Shown here one piece after another: positions 3,989 through 31,125 of a DNA stretch of 34,770 nt (position 1 is its first letter; each line of letters starts with the position of its first letter). The DNA is from Phormidium tenue FACHB-886 (GTDB taxonomy: Bacteria; Cyanobacteriota; Cyanobacteriia; Elainellales; Elainellaceae), in contig NZ_JACXWX010000049.1 of NCBI RefSeq assembly GCF_014764505.1, forward strand, positions 1 through 34,770, written 5' to 3'. The position numbers and the translations under genes are program-made. The notes below the pieces were generated by a model that was not told the origin of the DNA, searched no databases, and worked only from the letters and a program-made list of their open reading frames with translations.

Positions 3989-4501
3989 ATGTCTTTGATA
4001 GTTTGGCAATTTGGCAGCAGCAATCCTGATAATGCGGGTAATTTTGCGAGGATTAGCCACTGGTGGGCAGGGTTGGGCGGTCAGGAAGTGCAATGGCGAC
4101 AGCGATTGCTCACCCCAGCAGGCAATGCCAGCGAACTGGATTGGGAGCCGCAGCGGTTTGATGAAACATTTATCATTGCGGCATCGGAAATTCGGGGCAT
4201 CACGTTGTATTACCAGAAGCCAGGATCGCAGGGCGATCGCAGTACTACACCTCAAAAGCTAGAGCTTGATACGCTGCGGCAACAGCTTTATGTGTATCCA
4301 CAGTCGCAAAAAGATTTGGTTATTCGGGTGGGGTTGCCGCAGGTTACCTATCAGCAAGTGAAGTTGAATAACCCCCAAGTGGCAGTAGAGGCAGTTGCTA
4401 ACGGCACAGCTCTGACGTTTCGGGATGAAGCACAGCTGCTAGAAGTGCAGGTGAGGCTAAGCCCAGAAGCACTGGCAGAGCTGAAGCGGTTAATGGGTTA
4501 A
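3989..4501 (+). CDS. Hypothetical protein, probably cyanobacteria-specific
   Basis: I do not recognise this 170-residue soluble protein. It begins MSLIVWQFGSSNPDNAG and has no signal peptide, membrane segment or catalytic signature. The middle is rich in Gln and Leu, and the C-terminal half has alternating hydrophobic residues that suggest beta-strands followed by a short helix. The frame stays open back to 3881. The extra 36 residues would be encoded through the GC-rich hairpins and are basic and unstructured, so I prefer the ATG at 3989. The spaced GGGGGG just upstream could serve as a weak ribosome contact. The gene has its own divergent promoter region of about 210 bp, shared with the HDAC-family gene. 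Confidence 0.65.
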   Translation: MSLIVWQFGSSNPDNAGNFARISHWWAGLGGQEVQWRQRLLTPAGNASELDWEPQRFDETFIIAASEIRGITLYYQKPGSQGDRSTTPQKLELDTLRQQLYVYPQSQKDLVIRVGLPQVTYQQVKLNNPQVAVEAVANGTALTFRDEAQLLEVQVRLSPEALAELKRLMG

Positions 4502-4552
4502 GGTCCGCTCTCAGCGCCAGCAGGCAAACGCTAAAATCCAGAACATGTCTTG

Positions 4553-4577
4553 TTTCTATTTCTTTTTCTTTTTCTTT
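4553..4577 (+). other. Polypyrimidine tract in the regulator leader
   Basis: This is 25 nt of T and C with one A, built from TTTCT/TTTTTC units, ending 10 nt before the ATG of the response regulator. It could be a U-rich leader element, the T-run of a weak terminator for the upstream gene, or a simple low-complexity stretch. No stem precedes it. Confidence 0.4.
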
Positions 4578-4587
4578 AGCCGCTCTC

Positions 4588-5295
4588 ATGGAAATTCTGA
4601 TTGTTGAAGACGAATCCGAAATTGCTCAACTCATCCAGCTTTATCTGGAGAAGGAAGGGTTTAACTGTCGAACCTGTCGGGATGGGCTGGCGGCAATCCA
4701 GATGTTCCAGGAGCATCAGCCCGACTTGATCGTGTTGGACTTGATGATTCCAGGAATGGATGGGCTAGAAGTCTGCGCTCGGATTCGCCAAAAACCAGGC
4801 AGCAAAGACCCCTACATCCTGATGCTGACGGCAAAAGGCGAAGAGATCGATCGGATTATTGGGCTATCTACTGGCGCAGATGATTACATGGTCAAACCTT
4901 TTAGCCCCAGGGAGCTGGTGGCGCGGGTGAGGGCATTGCTGCGGCGGACGCTGCGCCAAGGTGGGCAAACGCGTACCTTCCAAACGCCACATTTTTCGGC
5001 AGATGTGGATCAGCGGGTTGCTCATCGCCTGCCTGAAAGCGGTGAAGCAGAGCCACTAGAGCTGACCACGCTGGAATTCGATCTGCTGACCACGTTTATG
5101 AGCTATCCCGGTCGAGTGTGGAATCGTGCCCAGCTGATCGAGAAGCTGTGGGGCAGCGATTTCTTTGGGGACGAACGGGTCGTCGATACTCACGTGGCGC
5201 GGCTTCGCAAAAAGATCGAGCCAGACCCCGCCAACCCTTCTTATCTAAAGACAGTGATTGGCGTGGGCTACAAATTTGAAGACGTTGCCAGCTAG
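4588..5295 (+). CDS. OmpR/PhoB-family response regulator
   Basis: The 235-residue protein has a receiver domain at about 1-120 and a winged-helix DNA-binding domain at about 135-232. Acidic pocket residues Glu7-Asp8, phospho-acceptor Asp51 (VLDLMIPGMDG) and the conserved Lys in VKPF are present, so it should be phosphorylated by a histidine kinase and then bind DNA. The winged-helix carries the usual YPGRVWNRAQLIEKLWG and VDTHVARLRKKIE blocks. No kinase gene lies nearby, so it is an orphan here. It is not obviously RpaA or RpaB. Its stop codon shares CTAG with the stop of the convergent glycosyltransferase, giving a 4-bp tail overlap. Confidence 0.92.
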   Translation: MEILIVEDESEIAQLIQLYLEKEGFNCRTCRDGLAAIQMFQEHQPDLIVLDLMIPGMDGLEVCARIRQKPGSKDPYILMLTAKGEEIDRIIGLSTGADDYMVKPFSPRELVARVRALLRRTLRQGGQTRTFQTPHFSADVDQRVAHRLPESGEAEPLELTTLEFDLLTTFMSYPGRVWNRAQLIEKLWGSDFFGDERVVDTHVARLRKKIEPDPANPSYLKTVIGVGYKFEDVAS

Positions 5296-6239
5296 AACCT
5301 CCGCCGCATTAGCGCAAACGGCAATCCGTCTGTGAGTTTGCCGACCTGCTCCAATGCATATCTTGGTACCCCTTGTGGGTGATAGCGCAAGGTGAGGTAC
5401 AGCGCCAGCACAGCTTCTTGCAGACGAAACTTTTTGAGGGCGCGAATTACGTCATACACCAGATAAGGGCTATAGAGCCTACACCATTGACGGATGCCTT
5501 CTCGGTGGGCGCTCGCCGTTTTGGGGTTTTGCTGCACCAAAGGCTTTTGTTTGGCAAAAACGGTGAGCGTGTCCACAAGATGCCGGAAGCTGTGCGTTGT
5601 TTCAGAAAGCGTTTTGCCGTGCTGCCGATACTCAACCACAGGCTGATTGTGGCTCTTGCCAGGAGATGCTGCTGCTGCTCTCAGGTAAAGATCATAGTCT
5701 TCTGCGACCTTAAGAGTCAGGTCAAAGTAGCCGATCGTCTCGAATAGCACTCGCCGGAAGATATGCCGCCCCGGTGGGTTGAGGCAGGTTCCCCGCAGCA
5801 ACGTCATATAAACGGAACCCTGAATGGGCTGTTCCAGAATCTTACGACCTGTTTGGGTTGGCACTCCGTTTTCATCGATCAGCCGACAGGTTCCAAAGGT
5901 AAACATCCAGTCGGGATGGGCTTTGAGCGTGTTTACCCCAATTTTGATTGCATTAGGCAAAAGGCGATCGTCACAGTCTAAAATCACGATGTATTCCCCT
6001 GTGCTGGAGGCAATTCCGTGATTGCGAGCGGCGGCTGCGCCTTGATTAACGGCAAGCGGCAAATACTTCACCTGAGGATAGCGCTCGACGATGGCTTTGC
6101 TGCCATCAGTGGATGCGTCATCCACTACAATAATTTCGGTGGCAGGATGGGTTTGAGTAAGAACGCTTTCGATCGCTTCTGCCAGAAAGCGTTCGCCATT
6201 GTAGCAGGGCATGATTACAGAGACAGTCGGTAGGTTCAC
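5292..6239 (-). CDS. Family 2 (GT-A) glycosyltransferase
   Basis: The 315-residue protein has an N-terminal GT-A domain. It shows VSVIMPCYNGERF (donor binding), VVDDASTDGS at about 39-47 and the DxD-type metal site Asp88-Cys-Asp90 (ILDCDDRL). There is no membrane segment, so it probably works at the cytoplasmic face on an envelope or exopolysaccharide intermediate; donor and acceptor are unknown. I use the GTG at 6239 because AGGAGG lies only 4-5 nt upstream on the minus strand, a strong ribosome binding site. The gene stands alone, with 299 bp of non-coding DNA before it. Confidence 0.9.
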   Translation of the reverse strand: MNLPTVSVIMPCYNGERFLAEAIESVLTQTHPATEIIVVDDASTDGSKAIVERYPQVKYLPLAVNQGAAAARNHGIASSTGEYIVILDCDDRLLPNAIKIGVNTLKAHPDWMFTFGTCRLIDENGVPTQTGRKILEQPIQGSVYMTLLRGTCLNPPGRHIFRRVLFETIGYFDLTLKVAEDYDLYLRAAAASPGKSHNQPVVEYRQHGKTLSETTHSFRHLVDTLTVFAKQKPLVQQNPKTASAHREGIRQWCRLYSPYLVYDVIRALKKFRLQEAVLALYLTLRYHPQGVPRYALEQVGKLTDGLPFALMRRRF

Positions 6240-25228: not shown

Positions 25229-26548
25229 TTATTCGCTTTCTTCTGCCGCTGCCGCTTGAGCATTGGTTTGCTCATTGGTTTGAGCATTCGGCGCAAATAC
25301 CCTGAGTCCGGCTGGAATGCATTCGACGTCGATCGGTGTCGTGCCGATAATCTCTCCATCTAGCACCACCTTTTGGGGTGGGTTTGTGGTGACGCGCAGC
25401 TTTCTAGCCGATAAATGCACTACGTTTTGTTGTTCAATTTCCGATCGGGTGACGGCAGCCCCCAGCATTTTCAGCATTGTGGTAATGCCTTGCAGCTTGG
25501 TTTCTGCCGAAGTGATAGTGACATCTAGCAAGCCGTCGTCAAATATTACCTCTCCGCCGCCATGCGCCAAGACTGAGGTGGGTGGAGCAGCGTTGGCGAT
25601 GGTGATTGCATGGGCCTCAAGCTGATAAACTGTGCCTTCGGCTTCGATTTCCGTTTCAAATAGCTGGTGGGTATCCATCGACTGCCAGCCCGCCATGAGA
25701 TATGCCAACACGCCCCACTGGTCTTTCAGTTCACGGTTTGCTAGCTCCACGGTAACGGCTTCATAGCCCACGCCCGCCAGCAAAATTAGCGGTAGACCGT
25801 TGCAGCGAGCCGCATCTACAGTGCGGACATTGCCATTCAGAATCGTCTGACAGGCATTGCGGATTGGCATCAAACGGGGAAGACCCAGCGCCACGGCAAA
25901 TGCATTGGCCGTTCCTCTAGGGATGATGCCTAGCGGAATGCCTGTGCTGATTAGGGCCCCCGCCACGGCAGACACAGTTCCATCTCCACCGGAGGCAATC
26001 ACCAGATCGGCTTTTGCCTCGATTGCTTCTTTCACCAGTGCTTCTGGCTCAACGGTGGGTGTGGTTTCATGCACTTCTAGCTGCATGTGCGGCTCCAAGA
26101 ACTGCCGAATAAAGGTAAGCTCTTGTTCGGAATTGCCTTGTCCTGCAACTGGGTTGAAGATTAAGTGGGCGATGCGCGCTCTGGCAAAGTGGTCAATGAC
26201 AGCATCGGCTGCCGCGAGGTTGGTTGCTAGCGGCACATTATGGATATTGCAAATCCGCAAGAACATTTGAATATCTGGCTCGTGCGGCTGTGTATAGAGC
26301 GGCTCAGCCAGAAAAATCACTGCCAAAACTTTGCCACTTGCGACTTCGGCAGCAATCTGAGCATCGCCACCCTGCGGGCCAGACAGCATTTTTTGCACAG
26401 ATAAACCTGTTGCCCATTCCACCCGCTCGCCTGTTGTTTGGGTGGCAATTAGACGGTAGCGGCTCAATACGGGGACATGCTGCTTAGCAAAGTCAACGAT
26501 CGCATCTTTTTTAGAGTCGTGGGCAATTAGCGCAATCGTGGTTGGCAT
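25229..26548 (-). CDS. Methylglyoxal synthase / diacylglycerol-kinase-type lipid kinase fusion
   Basis: The 439-residue protein joins two enzymes. Residues 1-122 align over their whole length with methylglyoxal synthase (dihydroxyacetone phosphate to methylglyoxal), with His10, Asp62, His89 and Asp92 matching E. coli His19, Asp71, His98 and Asp101. The position of catalytic Asp91 is Glu82 (LAEPLYTQPHEPD). Residues 125-430 form a YegS/DAGK catalytic domain with GGDGT at 187-191, PRGTANAFA at 210-218 and a C-terminal LDGE. Such kinases phosphorylate diacylglycerol or related lipids. Upstream frame to 26626 lacks family similarity, and AGGA precedes the ATG at 26548. Whether the synthase half is active is uncertain. 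Confidence 0.9.
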   Translation of the reverse strand: MPTTIALIAHDSKKDAIVDFAKQHVPVLSRYRLIATQTTGERVEWATGLSVQKMLSGPQGGDAQIAAEVASGKVLAVIFLAEPLYTQPHEPDIQMFLRICNIHNVPLATNLAAADAVIDHFARARIAHLIFNPVAGQGNSEQELTFIRQFLEPHMQLEVHETTPTVEPEALVKEAIEAKADLVIASGGDGTVSAVAGALISTGIPLGIIPRGTANAFAVALGLPRLMPIRNACQTILNGNVRTVDAARCNGLPLILLAGVGYEAVTVELANRELKDQWGVLAYLMAGWQSMDTHQLFETEIEAEGTVYQLEAHAITIANAAPPTSVLAHGGGEVIFDDGLLDVTITSAETKLQGITTMLKMLGAAVTRSEIEQQNVVHLSARKLRVTTNPPQKVVLDGEIIGTTPIDVECIPAGLRVFAPNAQTNEQTNAQAAAAEESE

Positions 26549-26636
26549 AAAAAATCCTGGGCAAAAATATCGATGTAAATCCTGAGCGTTGCACAAGTGA
26601 GGAATATTTGGCTTTGCCCAAAACATTCCTTAAAAC

Positions 26637-29561
26637 CTACCAGCCAAGGGGTGTGGGAGCGATCGGCTCGATGTCGGGATCATAGCCGCCGACCTGATTG
26701 GTTCGCAGTATCCAAACAGCAGCGTTTTGTTGAAGAAAGAGGTTGACGATCGTTTCACTGGCAAGGCGCGGCAGCAGAGTTCGCCAACTGATCAATCCCA
26801 CACGCAAACTTTCAAATGCATCTTCCTCCGGGCTTATTCCCAGCCTGCCTTCGCCGTTTTGCCAATCTGCGCGGGCTGCGCCGAACGGGAACAGCTGGTG
26901 CTTGATTGATTTTCCAAGTTTAACCAATTGCCGGAATCTCTGCGCTTGTTCCGAATTTTGCAGCAGCCATTCTTGCAGCTCCAGGCTGGCCCCTACCAAA
27001 TCTTGCAGCTGTTTGATGGCGGCGTACATTGCCTGGTTGGAGTCTTGAGCGCAGTTATGGGCTGCGCCAACATAGGTGCCACCTGTGCCATCGCCGATCC
27101 GGTAGCGGGCAGTCATGGCTTCTAGCTGCTCGATCAGCACATCCAACGCCGATCGCCGGATTGAGCCAAATTCATAGTCCTCTGTGAAGGCATCTAGCTT
27201 GATCAGCAGATCGCTAGTGGGACGGGTGCCTAGCCAGCCTACCTGCCGATCGCCCAGAAACCGATTCCAGGCTAAGGTTCCGGCAACGATGCCATCTACA
27301 TTGTGGGTATAAACCTGGTAATACTCGATCTCAAATTTCAGCTCATCGGCAAGCGGCTCCCGTACCACCGTTGCTAAACCATAGGCAAAATGCCCGAAAA
27401 AGATGGGCGATCCTGCGGCTGGCTCTCGATGTTTGCCGCCAATGCCGCCGTAGAGATGCAGCAGCAGGGCGCGGCTTCCTTCGGGGAAGAGGAAGGCGGG
27501 GGAAGGGGGGAGGGCCTTGGCGGGAAGATTTTCTGACTGCGGGTCAGATTCCTTAGCTTGGGGGTAGACCAGTACCGATCGCAGCGTTCCTTTGGCGAGG
27601 TCTTTCCAGGCTTGGTGCTTGATGTAGTTCCAGCCGTCGGTTTTGTCAGCGATAATTTCGTCGGGCTGGAGGCGGTGGAGGGCGCGGGGGGCGATCGATT
27701 GCACGACGAAATCGCCTGAGGCGTTCTTTGCACCGTAGACGTACCAACCGCTTGCATTGGCGGGTGATTTTTCTAGATTACGAGTGGTGGAGGGGTAGCT
27801 GCCGTAGTGTTTGGCAAAGACGACAGCGGGAAAATAGAGCGTTTCTTCATCGCCGTCGAACCTGCGAGTCGAGCGGTTGAAGTGGACGACGCGGAACCAT
27901 TCTGGTGGGATGTCGGGCGTGGGAGGAGGCTGGACGGGCTGCAAGAGCCGTACCAGTGCGTAAAATCGCCCGGTGATTTGGACGGGTTCATGGGCAATGG
28001 TGAGACTGGCTGGCTGAGCGGTGGTGTCAATTTCGATCGGCTCTTTGAGCTGGACGATCACATCGTCGTAGGGACGGGAACCTGCCAAAGACTCTAGCGG
28101 ATCGACCTGATGCCAGTGATCGAGGCGGTTAGGATGAACGCTGCCCTGGTTTTGACTGTATTCGGCATCTTCGCTGAAGTGCAGATCTTTGGCGACGACA
28201 CGGCGATAGCGACGGACACGCGGCTGATCGCTCCAGCGCAGCACCACCGTTTGCCCAATCAGGTGTTGATAAGGTTCAGGGGCGTGGTATAGCTCGATCC
28301 AGACGCCTTTGAAACGGCGATCGCGGGGTGGCAGGATCAGGCGTCCCATCCAAGGGGCGATCGGCTGGTAGTGGCTTGGATTAAGAGATTGGGCGATCGG
28401 ATAGTAGCTCGGCTGGTTGAAGGGTGCTTGTTGATAGAGGTCGTAGTTGCTGGGGGTAATTTGCTCAGTGTGTTGGTCAAGCGGCGACTGATCTTGCAAG
28501 ATGCCTGCCACAATGTCGAGCGTTTGCTGCAGGTGGGTGCGTCCGTCTGGCAAAATTGCCGTATCGCCGTAAGGCCCAGATTTGCCGTTGTGCCCCACGC
28601 CTTCCAGCGAAATAAAGCTAATCTTGCCGCGCCGTTTGGCTCGGTTCCAGTAGGACAGCGGAAAGATGCGCCAGCGACGAGGGAACATCACCGGGCCTTC
28701 TTTTTCGATCCAGTCTTTGTTGCCAACGATGTGGTAGAGATGCTCTAGCTCCAGGATGTTGTGGTTGCCGCTCATCACCCCCGACAGTGAAATGACTTCG
28801 ATCGGCGCTTGCAAAGCTCGTTTCAAATAAGGCGCAGCGCCTACGGCTAGCTGTCCGCCGCCGCTGTAACCCAGCAGCGTCAGGGGAATGCCGCTGCTGG
28901 GCTGGTAGCCATAGGTAAGCAGGCTGTTGTAAATGACTTGGGCAGTGCCTTGGTTGTAGATCGGTCCATAGCGCTGATCGGCGGAGACGCTGACAATCAA
29001 GATATTGCGGATATTGATGGTGGCAGCCACCAGTGCCCCAAAAATGCCGCCAGAAGGATTCATCTGCAGCCGATCGGCGAGGCGCCAAAAGAAAGACAGC
29101 AGCCGATCTTGGGTTAAAGGCTTGTTCAAGACCGAGTAGGGGATGATGCCTTTGATCAGCACAATGTCATCGGTGAGGACTTCTGCCAAACGATCGAGAA
29201 ATTGCTCTACTTCTGGCAGGCTCTCTACCTGAGCCTGCGAAATGCCATCGAGATAAACGACATAACGGGTCACCTTCAGCTCTGTAGGAAATGGTTCTGC
29301 CAAAATCCCTGGATGCTGGGTTGTGGTGATTTCATCGCCATACCACCCCGCCCACCAGCCCAGTGCTTCTAGCGGAGCCAGCAACGCGGCAAACAAAATG
29401 GCGATCGTGGCGATCGCCAGGAGATTGAGCAAAACATCCCAGGTTATCAGCAAGCCTTTAAACACCTCCAGCAATAAATCGCGCACCGGCAAAAAATACA
29501 TAGCGCTCAATAGCGCCAGAACGCCGATCGCCACTAAACGAATGATCTTGCTCAGCCGCAT
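26637..29561 (-). CDS. Membrane-anchored multidomain protein with two hydrolase-like modules
   Basis: The 974-residue protein has no family name I can give with confidence. Two hydrophobic helices (about 7-24 and 43-66) anchor it. Residues about 95-350 look like an alpha/beta hydrolase: nucleophile Ser233 in GYSGGG, then Asp283 (VGNKDW) and His324 (EGVGHNG) in the right order for a triad. A middle part (about 420-640) is rich in Pro and Trp and may be beta-rich. Near the end, His724 (FFGHFAYG), His753 and Cys837 (AAHNCAQDSN) follow the His-then-Cys order of circularly permuted NlpC/P60-type enzymes. The second assignment is inference. It starts 10 nt after the Yip1-like gene, with GAGGA as ribosome binding site, so the two are an operon. 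Confidence 0.75.
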   Translation of the reverse strand: MRLSKIIRLVAIGVLALLSAMYFLPVRDLLLEVFKGLLITWDVLLNLLAIATIAILFAALLAPLEALGWWAGWYGDEITTTQHPGILAEPFPTELKVTRYVVYLDGISQAQVESLPEVEQFLDRLAEVLTDDIVLIKGIIPYSVLNKPLTQDRLLSFFWRLADRLQMNPSGGIFGALVAATINIRNILIVSVSADQRYGPIYNQGTAQVIYNSLLTYGYQPSSGIPLTLLGYSGGGQLAVGAAPYLKRALQAPIEVISLSGVMSGNHNILELEHLYHIVGNKDWIEKEGPVMFPRRWRIFPLSYWNRAKRRGKISFISLEGVGHNGKSGPYGDTAILPDGRTHLQQTLDIVAGILQDQSPLDQHTEQITPSNYDLYQQAPFNQPSYYPIAQSLNPSHYQPIAPWMGRLILPPRDRRFKGVWIELYHAPEPYQHLIGQTVVLRWSDQPRVRRYRRVVAKDLHFSEDAEYSQNQGSVHPNRLDHWHQVDPLESLAGSRPYDDVIVQLKEPIEIDTTAQPASLTIAHEPVQITGRFYALVRLLQPVQPPPTPDIPPEWFRVVHFNRSTRRFDGDEETLYFPAVVFAKHYGSYPSTTRNLEKSPANASGWYVYGAKNASGDFVVQSIAPRALHRLQPDEIIADKTDGWNYIKHQAWKDLAKGTLRSVLVYPQAKESDPQSENLPAKALPPSPAFLFPEGSRALLLHLYGGIGGKHREPAAGSPIFFGHFAYGLATVVREPLADELKFEIEYYQVYTHNVDGIVAGTLAWNRFLGDRQVGWLGTRPTSDLLIKLDAFTEDYEFGSIRRSALDVLIEQLEAMTARYRIGDGTGGTYVGAAHNCAQDSNQAMYAAIKQLQDLVGASLELQEWLLQNSEQAQRFRQLVKLGKSIKHQLFPFGAARADWQNGEGRLGISPEEDAFESLRVGLISWRTLLPRLASETIVNLFLQQNAAVWILRTNQVGGYDPDIEPIAPTPLGW

Positions 29562-29571
29562 GCTTTATTCC

Positions 29572-30273
29572 TCATTGCTCCGAGCGATCGCTCGCTCCAG
29601 CCGCATTGCTTCTGCCAATCCGCGATACCTGCCCCACGACCTGCTCCAGCTCCCGCAAATTTGTGACCAGCTTGACTCCAGCAGCCCGATTTGCCAGCCA
29701 ACGCCCCAACCCTGCTAAGGGCCGTCCGATCGTCCGCTGCAAGACCTCAAACACTATCCAGCCCAGCACTCCACACCAAAACGCCTGCCACAGCCCCAAG
29801 CCTAAGCCGACCCGCAGCCCGGTCAAAAATGCCAAAAAGCTCCAAACCGAGAGCACCGTTGAGATCGGCACTCCCAGATAGGGCAAGGCGACCAAGAAGC
29901 TCAGCGTTAAGGGCGCATAAGACAAGCCCAATGCCCGGGCTATCACCAGCAGCGAGATCAGCGGCTCCCGAAACAGCAACACACTCGCTAACCAAGTGCT
30001 AATCGCCCAAAACACATAGCCAAAGGCAAACAAAACTGCCGCAATCAGCAAGCTCAGCCCAAAACGAAATGGCTTCACTCGATTCACAAACAGCACAATG
30101 CCCTGCCCGATTGCCTGCGAAAATCCCGCCACAAATGCCACGGTGAGCGCCGCTCGTGTTCCTAACGGCAGCGTTTGAATGTCTCGAAAAGCCTCTGGGT
30201 TAAGGAAGAGCGCTTTGACAACAAGTTCTCCCAGGTGAGCGATCGCAGTTTCAGCCATGCTAGTAGCAGTCAT
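29572..30273 (-). CDS. Yip1-like multi-pass membrane protein
   Basis: The protein has four to five strongly hydrophobic segments between about residues 35 and 185 (for example AALTVAFVAGFSQAIGQGIVL and LLIAAVLFAFGYVFWAIS in part). Conserved Pro and Gly lie in the last ones, as in the bacterial Yip1 family (PF04893), whose function is unknown. A basic and polar tail follows. The frame opens at 30330, but those codons lie in a terminator-like hairpin, so I choose the ATG at 30273 (233 residues); ATG 30258 is an alternative. It is tightly coupled to the 974-residue protein and may form a membrane complex with it. Confidence 0.7.
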   Translation of the reverse strand: MTATSMAETAIAHLGELVVKALFLNPEAFRDIQTLPLGTRAALTVAFVAGFSQAIGQGIVLFVNRVKPFRFGLSLLIAAVLFAFGYVFWAISTWLASVLLFREPLISLLVIARALGLSYAPLTLSFLVALPYLGVPISTVLSVWSFLAFLTGLRVGLGLGLWQAFWCGVLGWIVFEVLQRTIGRPLAGLGRWLANRAAGVKLVTNLRELEQVVGQVSRIGRSNAAGASDRSEQ

Positions 30274-30299
30274 GCTAATAAAACCCAGTATAAAAACAG

Positions 30300-30332
30300 T
30301 TTTGTGCAGGGATGCTGTATCCCTGCACAAAA
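30300..30332. terminator. Perfect 14-bp hairpin between the MliC and Yip1-like genes
   Basis: TTTTGTGCAGGGAT pairs exactly with ATCCCTGCACAAAA over loop GCTGT. On the minus strand, T-rich DNA follows (CTGTTTTTATA). It lies about 85 nt after the MliC-gene stop and 27 nt before the Yip1-like start. It may end the first transcript or structure the leader of the second. Confidence 0.65.
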
Positions 30333-30381
30333 CCTTAAGCCGGAAGTGGCTAGCTATAAATCATTGAGAACTAATAAACAG

Positions 30382-30414: not shown

Positions 30415-31125
30415 TTACCATAGCGCCCGCACAGGAGTCGGAGCTGTTTGAGTTCGTGCCGGAGCGGTAGTGGCAGGGCTAGTGGTGGTACGCTGCGTCG
30501 TGGTAGTTGTCGTAGACCGCTGTGTTGTGCTTGTTCCAAGGGTTGTACGACTGGTTGAGCTAGAAGCAGCGCTGGAGCCGCTGGCGCTGGAGTTCGTGGA
30601 GTTCGTGGAGTTCGTGGAGTTTGTAGAGCTAGCAGCTGTGCTCTGCTCACCCACGCAGCTTGCATAAGTTTGCTGACCGCCTTCTTCGATATATGCTTCA
30701 GTTCCTCTGCTGTAGAGCGTCGTTTCGCCATCAGAATAGCGGGTTCCCGATGCTGATTCCCCTACCTGGGGCAGCGTTCTGGTTTCTCCGTCTAGCGTCA
30801 CCGCAGCGCTGTCAGTACCGTACTCCACCTGGAAAGAACCGCCGCCGCTGCACTGGTAGGCGATCTCTCCTTGCATTTGCCCATCAGGTTGATTGGCATC
30901 AGGTGTACCAGGATCGCCTACCGCAGGTCTTCTCATGCTGGGGAGGTTTTGCCCTGGCTCCGTCTGTCTAGGCTGCGTCACACCGGGTGTCGTTGGATTA
31001 GACTGCGCTGGGATAGCACGCTCTGGCTCTGATGAGTCGGGTGAAGACTGTTGTGCCTGTACGGGCACCGCAGCAACTGCCATCATTACGGATAGCCCAA
31101 CGGTGAGAAACTGAAGTCCTTTCAT
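30415..31125 (-). CDS. Secreted MliC-domain protein (C-type lysozyme inhibitor fold)
   Basis: The 236-residue protein has a signal peptide cut after about residue 24 (PVQA) and no lipobox cysteine, so it is soluble or wall-bound outside the plasma membrane. A proline-rich linker leads to an MliC domain at about 88-158: AYQCSGGGSFQVEYG, AAVTLDG, and the inhibitory-loop motif SASGTRYSDG (124-133). Cys92 and Cys157 would form the family disulfide. The last 75 residues are almost all Ser and Thr, with four Thr-Asn-Ser units. MliC proteins block c-type lysozymes of animals; a cyanobacterial role could instead involve its own or grazers' muramidases (inference). AGGAG precedes the ATG. Confidence 0.85.
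   Translation of the reverse strand: MKGLQFLTVGLSVMMAVAAVPVQAQQSSPDSSEPERAIPAQSNPTTPGVTQPRQTEPGQNLPSMRRPAVGDPGTPDANQPDGQMQGEIAYQCSGGGSFQVEYGTDSAAVTLDGETRTLPQVGESASGTRYSDGETTLYSRGTEAYIEEGGQQTYASCVGEQSTAASSTNSTNSTNSTNSSASGSSAASSSTSRTTLGTSTTQRSTTTTTTQRTTTSPATTAPARTQTAPTPVRALW
30592..30627. repeat. 9-bp tandem repeat, four units
   Basis: GTTCGTGGA is repeated three times exactly and a fourth time as GTTTGTAGA. On the minus strand it encodes Ser-Thr-Asn units in the tail of the MliC-domain protein. Unit gain or loss would keep the frame. Confidence 0.85.

Follow-up and report, generated by a model that had tools for sequence, protein, structure and literature searches.

The stretch of DNA analysed here, called the window below, spans 34,770 nucleotides of Phormidium tenue FACHB-886 (contig NZ_JACXWX010000049.1, positions 1 to 34,770 of the forward strand). 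Our subject is a minus-strand gene for a 974-residue membrane hydrolase, together with the neighboring gene for a Yip1-like membrane protein. The two genes and the membrane anchor of the hydrolase are located as follows.

29561..26637, minus strand: gene of the 974-residue membrane hydrolase; ATG start, no internal stop (open reading frame [ORF] and translation)
29334..29561, minus strand: N-terminal membrane anchor, residues 1-76, with helices 2-22 and 24-70 (hydropathy, AlphaFold2 secondary structure)
29572..30330, minus strand: Yip1-like multi-span membrane protein, 252 residues if the TTG start is used

An earlier reading of the sequence alone (the sequence-only reading) had described a protein with two N-terminal membrane helices, a lipase-like serine site and, farther along the chain, a second site in the order of permuted NlpC/P60 enzymes. 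All of the residues it named, Ser233 (in GYSGGG), Asp283, His324, His724, His753, Asn836, and Cys837, were found at the positions claimed, and the 10-nt spacing it reported between the two genes corresponds to a gap at 29562-29571. The membrane helices are borne out by two hydrophobic N-terminal stretches, with maxima of 2.32 and 2.73 in 19-residue Kyte-Doolittle windows, and by the modelled helices. Beyond residue 194, no such window exceeds 1.4; thus, both sites are predicted to lie on one side of the membrane, in agreement with the earlier proposal.

Relatives of the protein were collected by a scan of genome contigs, which gave 79 loci at 39-72% identity, mostly from filamentous cyanobacteria; three are metagenome-assembled genomes labelled Eremiobacterota (L057, L059, and L066). 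Among 292 genomes sampled from the phylum, 49 contain matches to the 974-residue protein. Conservation was counted over distinct alignment rows, the window protein among them; the alignments had 94 and 102 rows until duplicates were dropped, and six broken or short pieces had been excluded. Profile searches of the 292 genomes score no more than 4 to 10 candidate positions in each genome.

The serine site lies in the first of the two large domains that follow the anchor.

28488..29279, minus strand: alpha/beta-hydrolase domain, approximately residues 95-358 (Foldseek, VIA)
28863..28865, minus strand: Ser233, putative nucleophile, at the elbow position; 90/90 rows, 17/17 module-free relatives
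28713..28715, minus strand: Asp283, putative triad acid; 90/90 rows, 17/17 module-free relatives
28590..28592, minus strand: His324, putative triad base; 90/90 rows, 17/17 module-free relatives

Each of the three residues is invariant in the 90 distinct rows, and all three are kept in the 17 hydrolases that do not have the C-terminal module described below (15 stand-alone, 2 fused to Yip1); an alignment of 11 of the 17 gives 25-31% identity to the window protein. In the full-length AlphaFold2 model (mean predicted local distance difference test [pLDDT] score of 85.3, predicted template modelling [pTM] score of 0.83, 60 sequences), Ser233 sits between strand 227-232 and helix 234-250, at a nucleophile elbow, as the sequence-only reading had supposed. 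By model secondary structure and residue order, strand 274-279 precedes Asp283 and strand 314-318 precedes His324. A Foldseek search of this region against the PDB returned 15 matches at an E value of ≤0.001 (7.0e-5 to 9.7e-4). Dienelactone hydrolases, a carboxylesterase, acyl-protein thioesterase 2, and a pancreatic lipase-related protein are among them, and VIA aligned 211 residues of the domain with 9n2w_A (Z of 14.5, root mean square deviation of 3.3). Because of the elbow placement, the invariant triad, and these structural matches, we conclude that residues ~95-358 are, as modelled, an alpha/beta-hydrolase fold with a conserved Ser-Asp-His triad, the fold proposed earlier from residue order.

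Searches of Pfam and NCBIfam gave no family above cut-off for the 974-residue protein or for the relatives tested. Below cut-off, Thioesterase PF00975 matches the 974-residue protein (E value of 0.012, 16.3 bits versus 26.4 required), and the thioesterase model PF02089 matches two relatives at E values of 0.06-0.1; these matches point the same way as the acyl ester or thioester substrate that we propose below. A Ntox30 toxin model in the same two relatives (0.0026 and 0.0077) was also below cut-off and was disregarded.

The second gene tracks the hydrolase closely. The sequence-only reading had called for a neighborhood check of the pair, which upheld it: among 76 hydrolase loci, the Yip1-like protein is fused to the hydrolase N terminus in 46 and encoded adjacently on the same strand in 26. 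The gene is also adjacent or fused in 19 of the 20 strong module-free hydrolase loci that were examined. At an E value of <1e-10, a cut set after the tables were inspected, hydrolase and Yip1-like hits fall in the same 34 of the 292 genomes, with none discordant; a Fisher test gives 3e-45, a value that ignores phylogeny and the construction of the profiles. The cut removes genomes with a weak match to one profile only, either Yip1-like (G004, G018, and G146) or hydrolase (G175 and G239). In 7 of the 34 genomes, the Yip1-like proteins, here from small genomes, match an earlier, independent-clade profile only at 2e-7 to 3e-9 (one at 3e-6).

By sequence, the partner family belongs with Yip1. Pfam Yip1 (PF04893) is matched by 16 of 56 family members, with a best value of 4e-10, and the profile of the family aligns with a 13-member Yip1 set in hhalign at 75% (E value of 2.4e-5); the window's own Yip1-like protein has no match to PF04893 in Pfam. 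Its gene probably begins downstream of the listed TTG, which is overlapped by the following feature.

30298-30334, minus strand: strong 16-pair hairpin with a T-tract; it overlaps the TTG listed as the Yip1-like start

The hairpin is probably the terminator of the gene upstream of the Yip1-like ORF, so the true start would lie downstream of the TTG. The majority of homologue alignments begin at residue 18 or beyond, and an ATG at 30273 or 30258 is the more likely start.

The pair is also found outside cyanobacteria. A plasmid search yielded 14 records matching the hydrolase, 12 of them non-cyanobacterial. The four of these 12 that were examined, from Microvirga, Sinorhizobium meliloti, Sinorhizobium fredii, and Nonomuraea, encode hydrolases 33-35% identical to the query, and all four have an upstream Yip1-like ORF (E values of 2e-4 to 1e-6 in a small search).

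L240, L241, L242, and L244, ~4300-5800: non-cyanobacterial hydrolase and upstream Yip1-like ORF, on large replicons

In seven genomes of 2.4-2.9 Mb (L214-L218, L220, and L223), the pair lies within a conserved block beside a membrane family, identified as DUF6629 by its L215 member. Six of the seven blocks also contain another small family; its L215 member bears a GFSMGG motif resembling that of lipases. Phage records gave no match to the small-genome relative tested.

Most of the remaining chain is taken up by a large C-terminal module, which holds the second candidate site.

26646..28451, minus strand: C-terminal module, approximately residues 371-972, with a beta-rich part (~388-626) and an alpha/beta part (~640-974)
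27474..27479, minus strand: Gly695-Ser696, site of the family GD motif, before strand 697-704
27390..27392, minus strand: His724, putative catalytic base, opening strand 724-735; 97/97 rows
27303..27305, minus strand: His753, putative third polar residue, just past strand 740-749; His in 80 rows, Gln in 13, Asn in 4
27222..27224, minus strand: Arg780, immediately before strand 781-788; 97/97 rows
27102..27104, minus strand: Tyr820, candidate fourth active-site residue, in the helix preceding the Cys helix; 97/97 rows
27051..27053, minus strand: Cys837, putative nucleophile, opening helix 837-857; Cys in 95/97 rows, Ser in 2

The AlphaFold2 model of the module (609 residues) is confident, with a mean pLDDT of 90.1 and a pTM of 0.92 from 63 sequences. 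The C-terminal part of the window protein has a single cysteine, Cys837, which, like His724, proved to be conserved, as the earlier proposal needed; the two members with Ser in its place (L017 and L066) both retain His724. Among 18 histidines in the same part, only 560, 702, and 724 reach 96/97. Position 836, next to the cysteine, is Asn in 72 of 97 rows and Ser in 25. At the GD site, Gly695 is kept in 94 of 97 rows, and position 696 is Asp in 79, Glu in 8, and Ser in 4, the window protein having Ser.

In permuted NlpC/P60 proteins, a five-stranded sheet is followed by helices, one of which carries the Cys; the active site is a Cys/His/polar triad with an extra Tyr (PMC3142127), and the Asp of a GD motif in strand 1 contacts an Arg of strand 5 (PMC10318531). 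The module resembles this arrangement in residue order and secondary structure, and Tyr820, Arg780, and the family GD motif are candidate counterparts of the published features, a likeness that was assembled after the sequence had been seen; as strand 659-665 precedes 697-704, the strand numbering used for the GD/Arg comparison is our own. Judged from the residues and the model, a cysteine site formed by Cys837 and His724 is plausible. We call the module papain-like by analogy and do not count it as a member of NlpC/P60, because sequence, fold, and profile searches give no link.

The module also occurs apart from the hydrolase. It was found in 37 of the 292 genomes, 22 with the hydrolase and 15 without, and no module was detected in 12 of the 34 hydrolase genomes. 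The C-terminal domain is separable from the hydrolase and occurs on its own or, often, joined to a CPBP/Rce1-type protease. Near-complete hydrolase-free forms, defined by a query match from residue 398 or earlier to residue 970 or later, number 14 distinct forms from 15 loci, two of which share a frame. Ten of the 14 have the EExxxR motif in a tail of 188-197 residues. The tail of L099 does not have the exact motif, yet it matches the tail profile (L233); L072/L100, L107, and L109 have no tail. The window's own genome encodes a paralogue in which the module is fused to a CPBP/Rce1-like tail (PF02517, 4.2e-8) with EExxxR present. In one other genome (G011, L234 3599-10185), the gene for a Yip1-hydrolase-module fusion has one for a module-CPBP protease immediately after it.

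Conserved gene neighborhood beyond the pair was not found outside single clades. Two other genes flank the pair in the window.

25229-26626, minus strand: fusion of methylglyoxal synthase (TIGR00160, 1.7e-51) with a YegS-type lipid kinase (NF002033, 1.8e-133)
30415-31125, minus strand: MliC (lysozyme inhibitor) domain protein (PF09864, 5.5e-10) with a long Ser/Thr-rich tail

The first of these ORFs begins 10 nt past the stop of the 974-residue gene, and its homologues align only from residue 27; related genes are present in 3 of 96 scanned loci (L063, L038, and L042). A membrane-protein family, one tested member of which is DUF3611, occurs in 10 of the 79 loci in no usable pattern. PADLOC and PDB sequence searches with the protein, the partner, or relatives of either gave nothing above cut-off, and the whole window had no matches in Rfam (gathering threshold) or in a tRNA scan.

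We favor, at about an even chance, a reading in which the protein is an acyl hydrolase of the membrane, forms a working unit with the Yip1-like protein, and has, in many species, a second module that is probably cysteine based. As regards activity, substrate, second-site chemistry, and topology, we infer that the Ser233-His324-Asp283 triad would hydrolyze ester or thioester bonds, the likeliest targets being a lipid or an acylated protein. The Yip1-like subunit may anchor or assemble the enzyme in the membrane and open access to a membrane-embedded substrate, a role suggested in line with that described for YknW in the assembly of an ABC exporter (PMC4887032). By analogy with the permuted NlpC/P60 lipid enzymes on which this step is modelled, Cys837, His724, the polar residue at 753, and Tyr820 of the second module could work at the same membrane surface by cleaving or transferring an acyl or amide group; elsewhere, the same module is coupled to a CPBP-type intramembrane protease.

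Several observations count against this reading. On the side of the pair, no Yip1-like gene was found in 4 of the 76 hydrolase loci; two of these (L023 and L068) begin at contig ends, and the upstream sequence amounts to 839 bases in L027 and ~8 kb in L062. There is no adjacent Yip1 gene at the strong paralogue L245 (G005) or at the diverged paralogues L246 and L247, and the two genes are unlinked in G008, in G286, and in one G011 copy, while co-occurrence holds. The Yip1-like profile (A6) was built from genes adjacent to the hydrolase, with some rows from the 292 genomes themselves; hydrolase-free Yip1 relatives may thus be under-detected, and some hits may be partly by construction. Pfam gave no match for the one small-genome Yip1-like protein tested and did not recognize the Yip1-like ORFs of the four non-cyanobacterial loci. 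The clues to which side of the membrane the enzyme faces disagree. Across the 90 rows, the stretch ahead of the first helix averages basic and the stretch past the second helix acidic; most of the 14 hydrolase-free N termini, judged by eye, have one membrane helix after a basic stretch (not L107 or L109); and eukaryotic Yip1 proteins have a cytosolic N terminus and a lumenal C terminus (PMC6682643).

The module adds its own difficulties, and here the proposal of a permuted NlpC/P60 site held in part: residue order and secondary structure agree with it, and the Tyr, Arg, and family GD positions are putative counterparts, but database comparisons give no link. Pfam and PDB sequence searches did not recognize the module. 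In hhalign, its profile gave 0.2% with LRAT, 0.2% with NlpC/P60, and 0.4% with C92, whereas the same test linked LRAT with NlpC at 89%, C92 with LRAT at 83%, and C92 with NlpC at 97% (sets of 17 LRAT, 24 NLPC_P60, 16 C92, and 13 Yip1 members from the phylum, with three selected members omitted). Foldseek returned no match at an E value of ≤0.001 for the module model among the best 50 of 177 PDB matches or the best 50 of 212 matches to viral models. VIA against the PDB gave Z values of ≤4.7, with no papain-like, LRAT, or YiiX structure among the matches listed; OB-fold-like entries for residues ~388-626 (SSB and PriB, Z of ~3) were too weak and were discounted. It is a real possibility, though below an even chance, that only the serine site is enzymatic. 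The module would then be a novel fold, distinct from NlpC, for binding lipid, peptidoglycan, or a partner protein, with the conserved Cys, His, and polar residues serving a structural or a ligand- or metal-binding role. Such a role would fit a confident model that nonetheless has no fold or profile match and the replacement of Cys by Ser in two members, although Ser could itself be a nucleophile. Invariance argues weakly for a cysteine site, since conservation of 97% or more is reached in 64 of the 609 C-terminal columns. What speaks for catalysis is the placement of Cys837 at a helix start and of His724 at a strand start, which is a papain-like arrangement, the restriction of position 753 to His, Gln, and Asn, as is typical of a third triad member, and the presence of Tyr820 and Arg780 in 97 of 97 rows.

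The fusions of the module raise another alternative, in which it is a protease or peptide-processing domain that partners CPBP-type proteases and, with the Yip1-hydrolase pair, processes acylated membrane proteins or lipoproteins. The own-genome paralogue, the EExxxR tails, and the gene order in G011 would all fit, but that adjacency is seen in one genome only; moreover, the 12 hydrolase genomes with no detected module and the 15 module genomes without a hydrolase count against it, and we consider this rather unlikely. Ordinary accretion, in which a generic lipase-like gene and an unrelated membrane-protein gene are neighbors that share no function, is highly improbable. Alpha/beta-hydrolases are very common proteins, and different clades have no common neighborhood outside the pair; against this stand the 34 shared genomes, the 46 fusions, the presence of the pair in all four loci examined from other phyla, and the persistence of co-occurrence where the genes are unlinked (G008 and G286). 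A bolder version of the favored reading, of an acyl hydrolase working with its Yip1-like partner, strikes us as unlikely in its full form: the two proteins would be an obligate two-subunit core in at least three phyla, upgraded in cyanobacteria to a two-nucleophile enzyme by fusion with a cysteine-hydrolase module, either a new papain-like one or one without precedent, that is shared with CPBP proteases, and the two sites would act sequentially on one acylated substrate.

The pair, with the Cys-His module in many species, suggests an undescribed membrane machine for lipid or acyl processing. To our knowledge, bacterial Yip1 proteins have little established function, and a hydrolase whose strong hits coincide with those of a Yip1-like protein in exactly the same 34 of 292 genomes offers a direct route to the role of that protein for its partner. 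The chemistry of a confidently modelled module of ~600 residues, unplaced by searches and shared with intramembrane proteases, becomes a testable question.

Comparison with known systems sets the parts in context. Dienelactone hydrolases, carboxylesterases, and acyl-protein thioesterases (9n2w_A, 2o2g, 4u2f, 1auo, and 5syn) have the same fold and Ser-Asp-His order; the window hydrolase is 10-15% identical to them and differs in being membrane anchored and linked to Yip1. The permuted NlpC/P60 enzymes (LRAT, YaeF/YiiX [C92], and PPPDE) share with the module the order of His, polar residue, Tyr, and Cys, the His at a strand start, and the Cys at a helix start; the family GD motif and the Arg before a later strand are candidate further likenesses. 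The module, in contrast, is ~600 residues long, has a beta-rich half of its own, and has no profile link or fold match to them; its His-to-polar spacing is 29, versus 15 in BcPPNE. CPBP/Rce1-like proteases (PF02517) are fused to the module in hydrolase-free forms, whereas the chain of the window protein stops where the module does, with neither a PF02517 match nor a domain of that kind. The partner family is tied to Yip1 (PF04893) by its Pfam and profile matches, but it forms a subfamily that gives strong hits only in hydrolase genomes among the 292 searched and is often fused to the hydrolase. Eukaryotic Yip1 proteins are mainly found in the Golgi (PMC6682643), and the Bacillus Yip1 protein YknW serves an ABC exporter and is described as modulating its assembly (PMC4887032). 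In the portions available of the open-access literature on bacterial and cyanobacterial Yip1, YknW, and CAAX/CPBP proteases, there is no description of the pair, the fusions, or the module. The recognizable parts each have a known fold; the pairing, the fusion series, and the module are what appears to be new.

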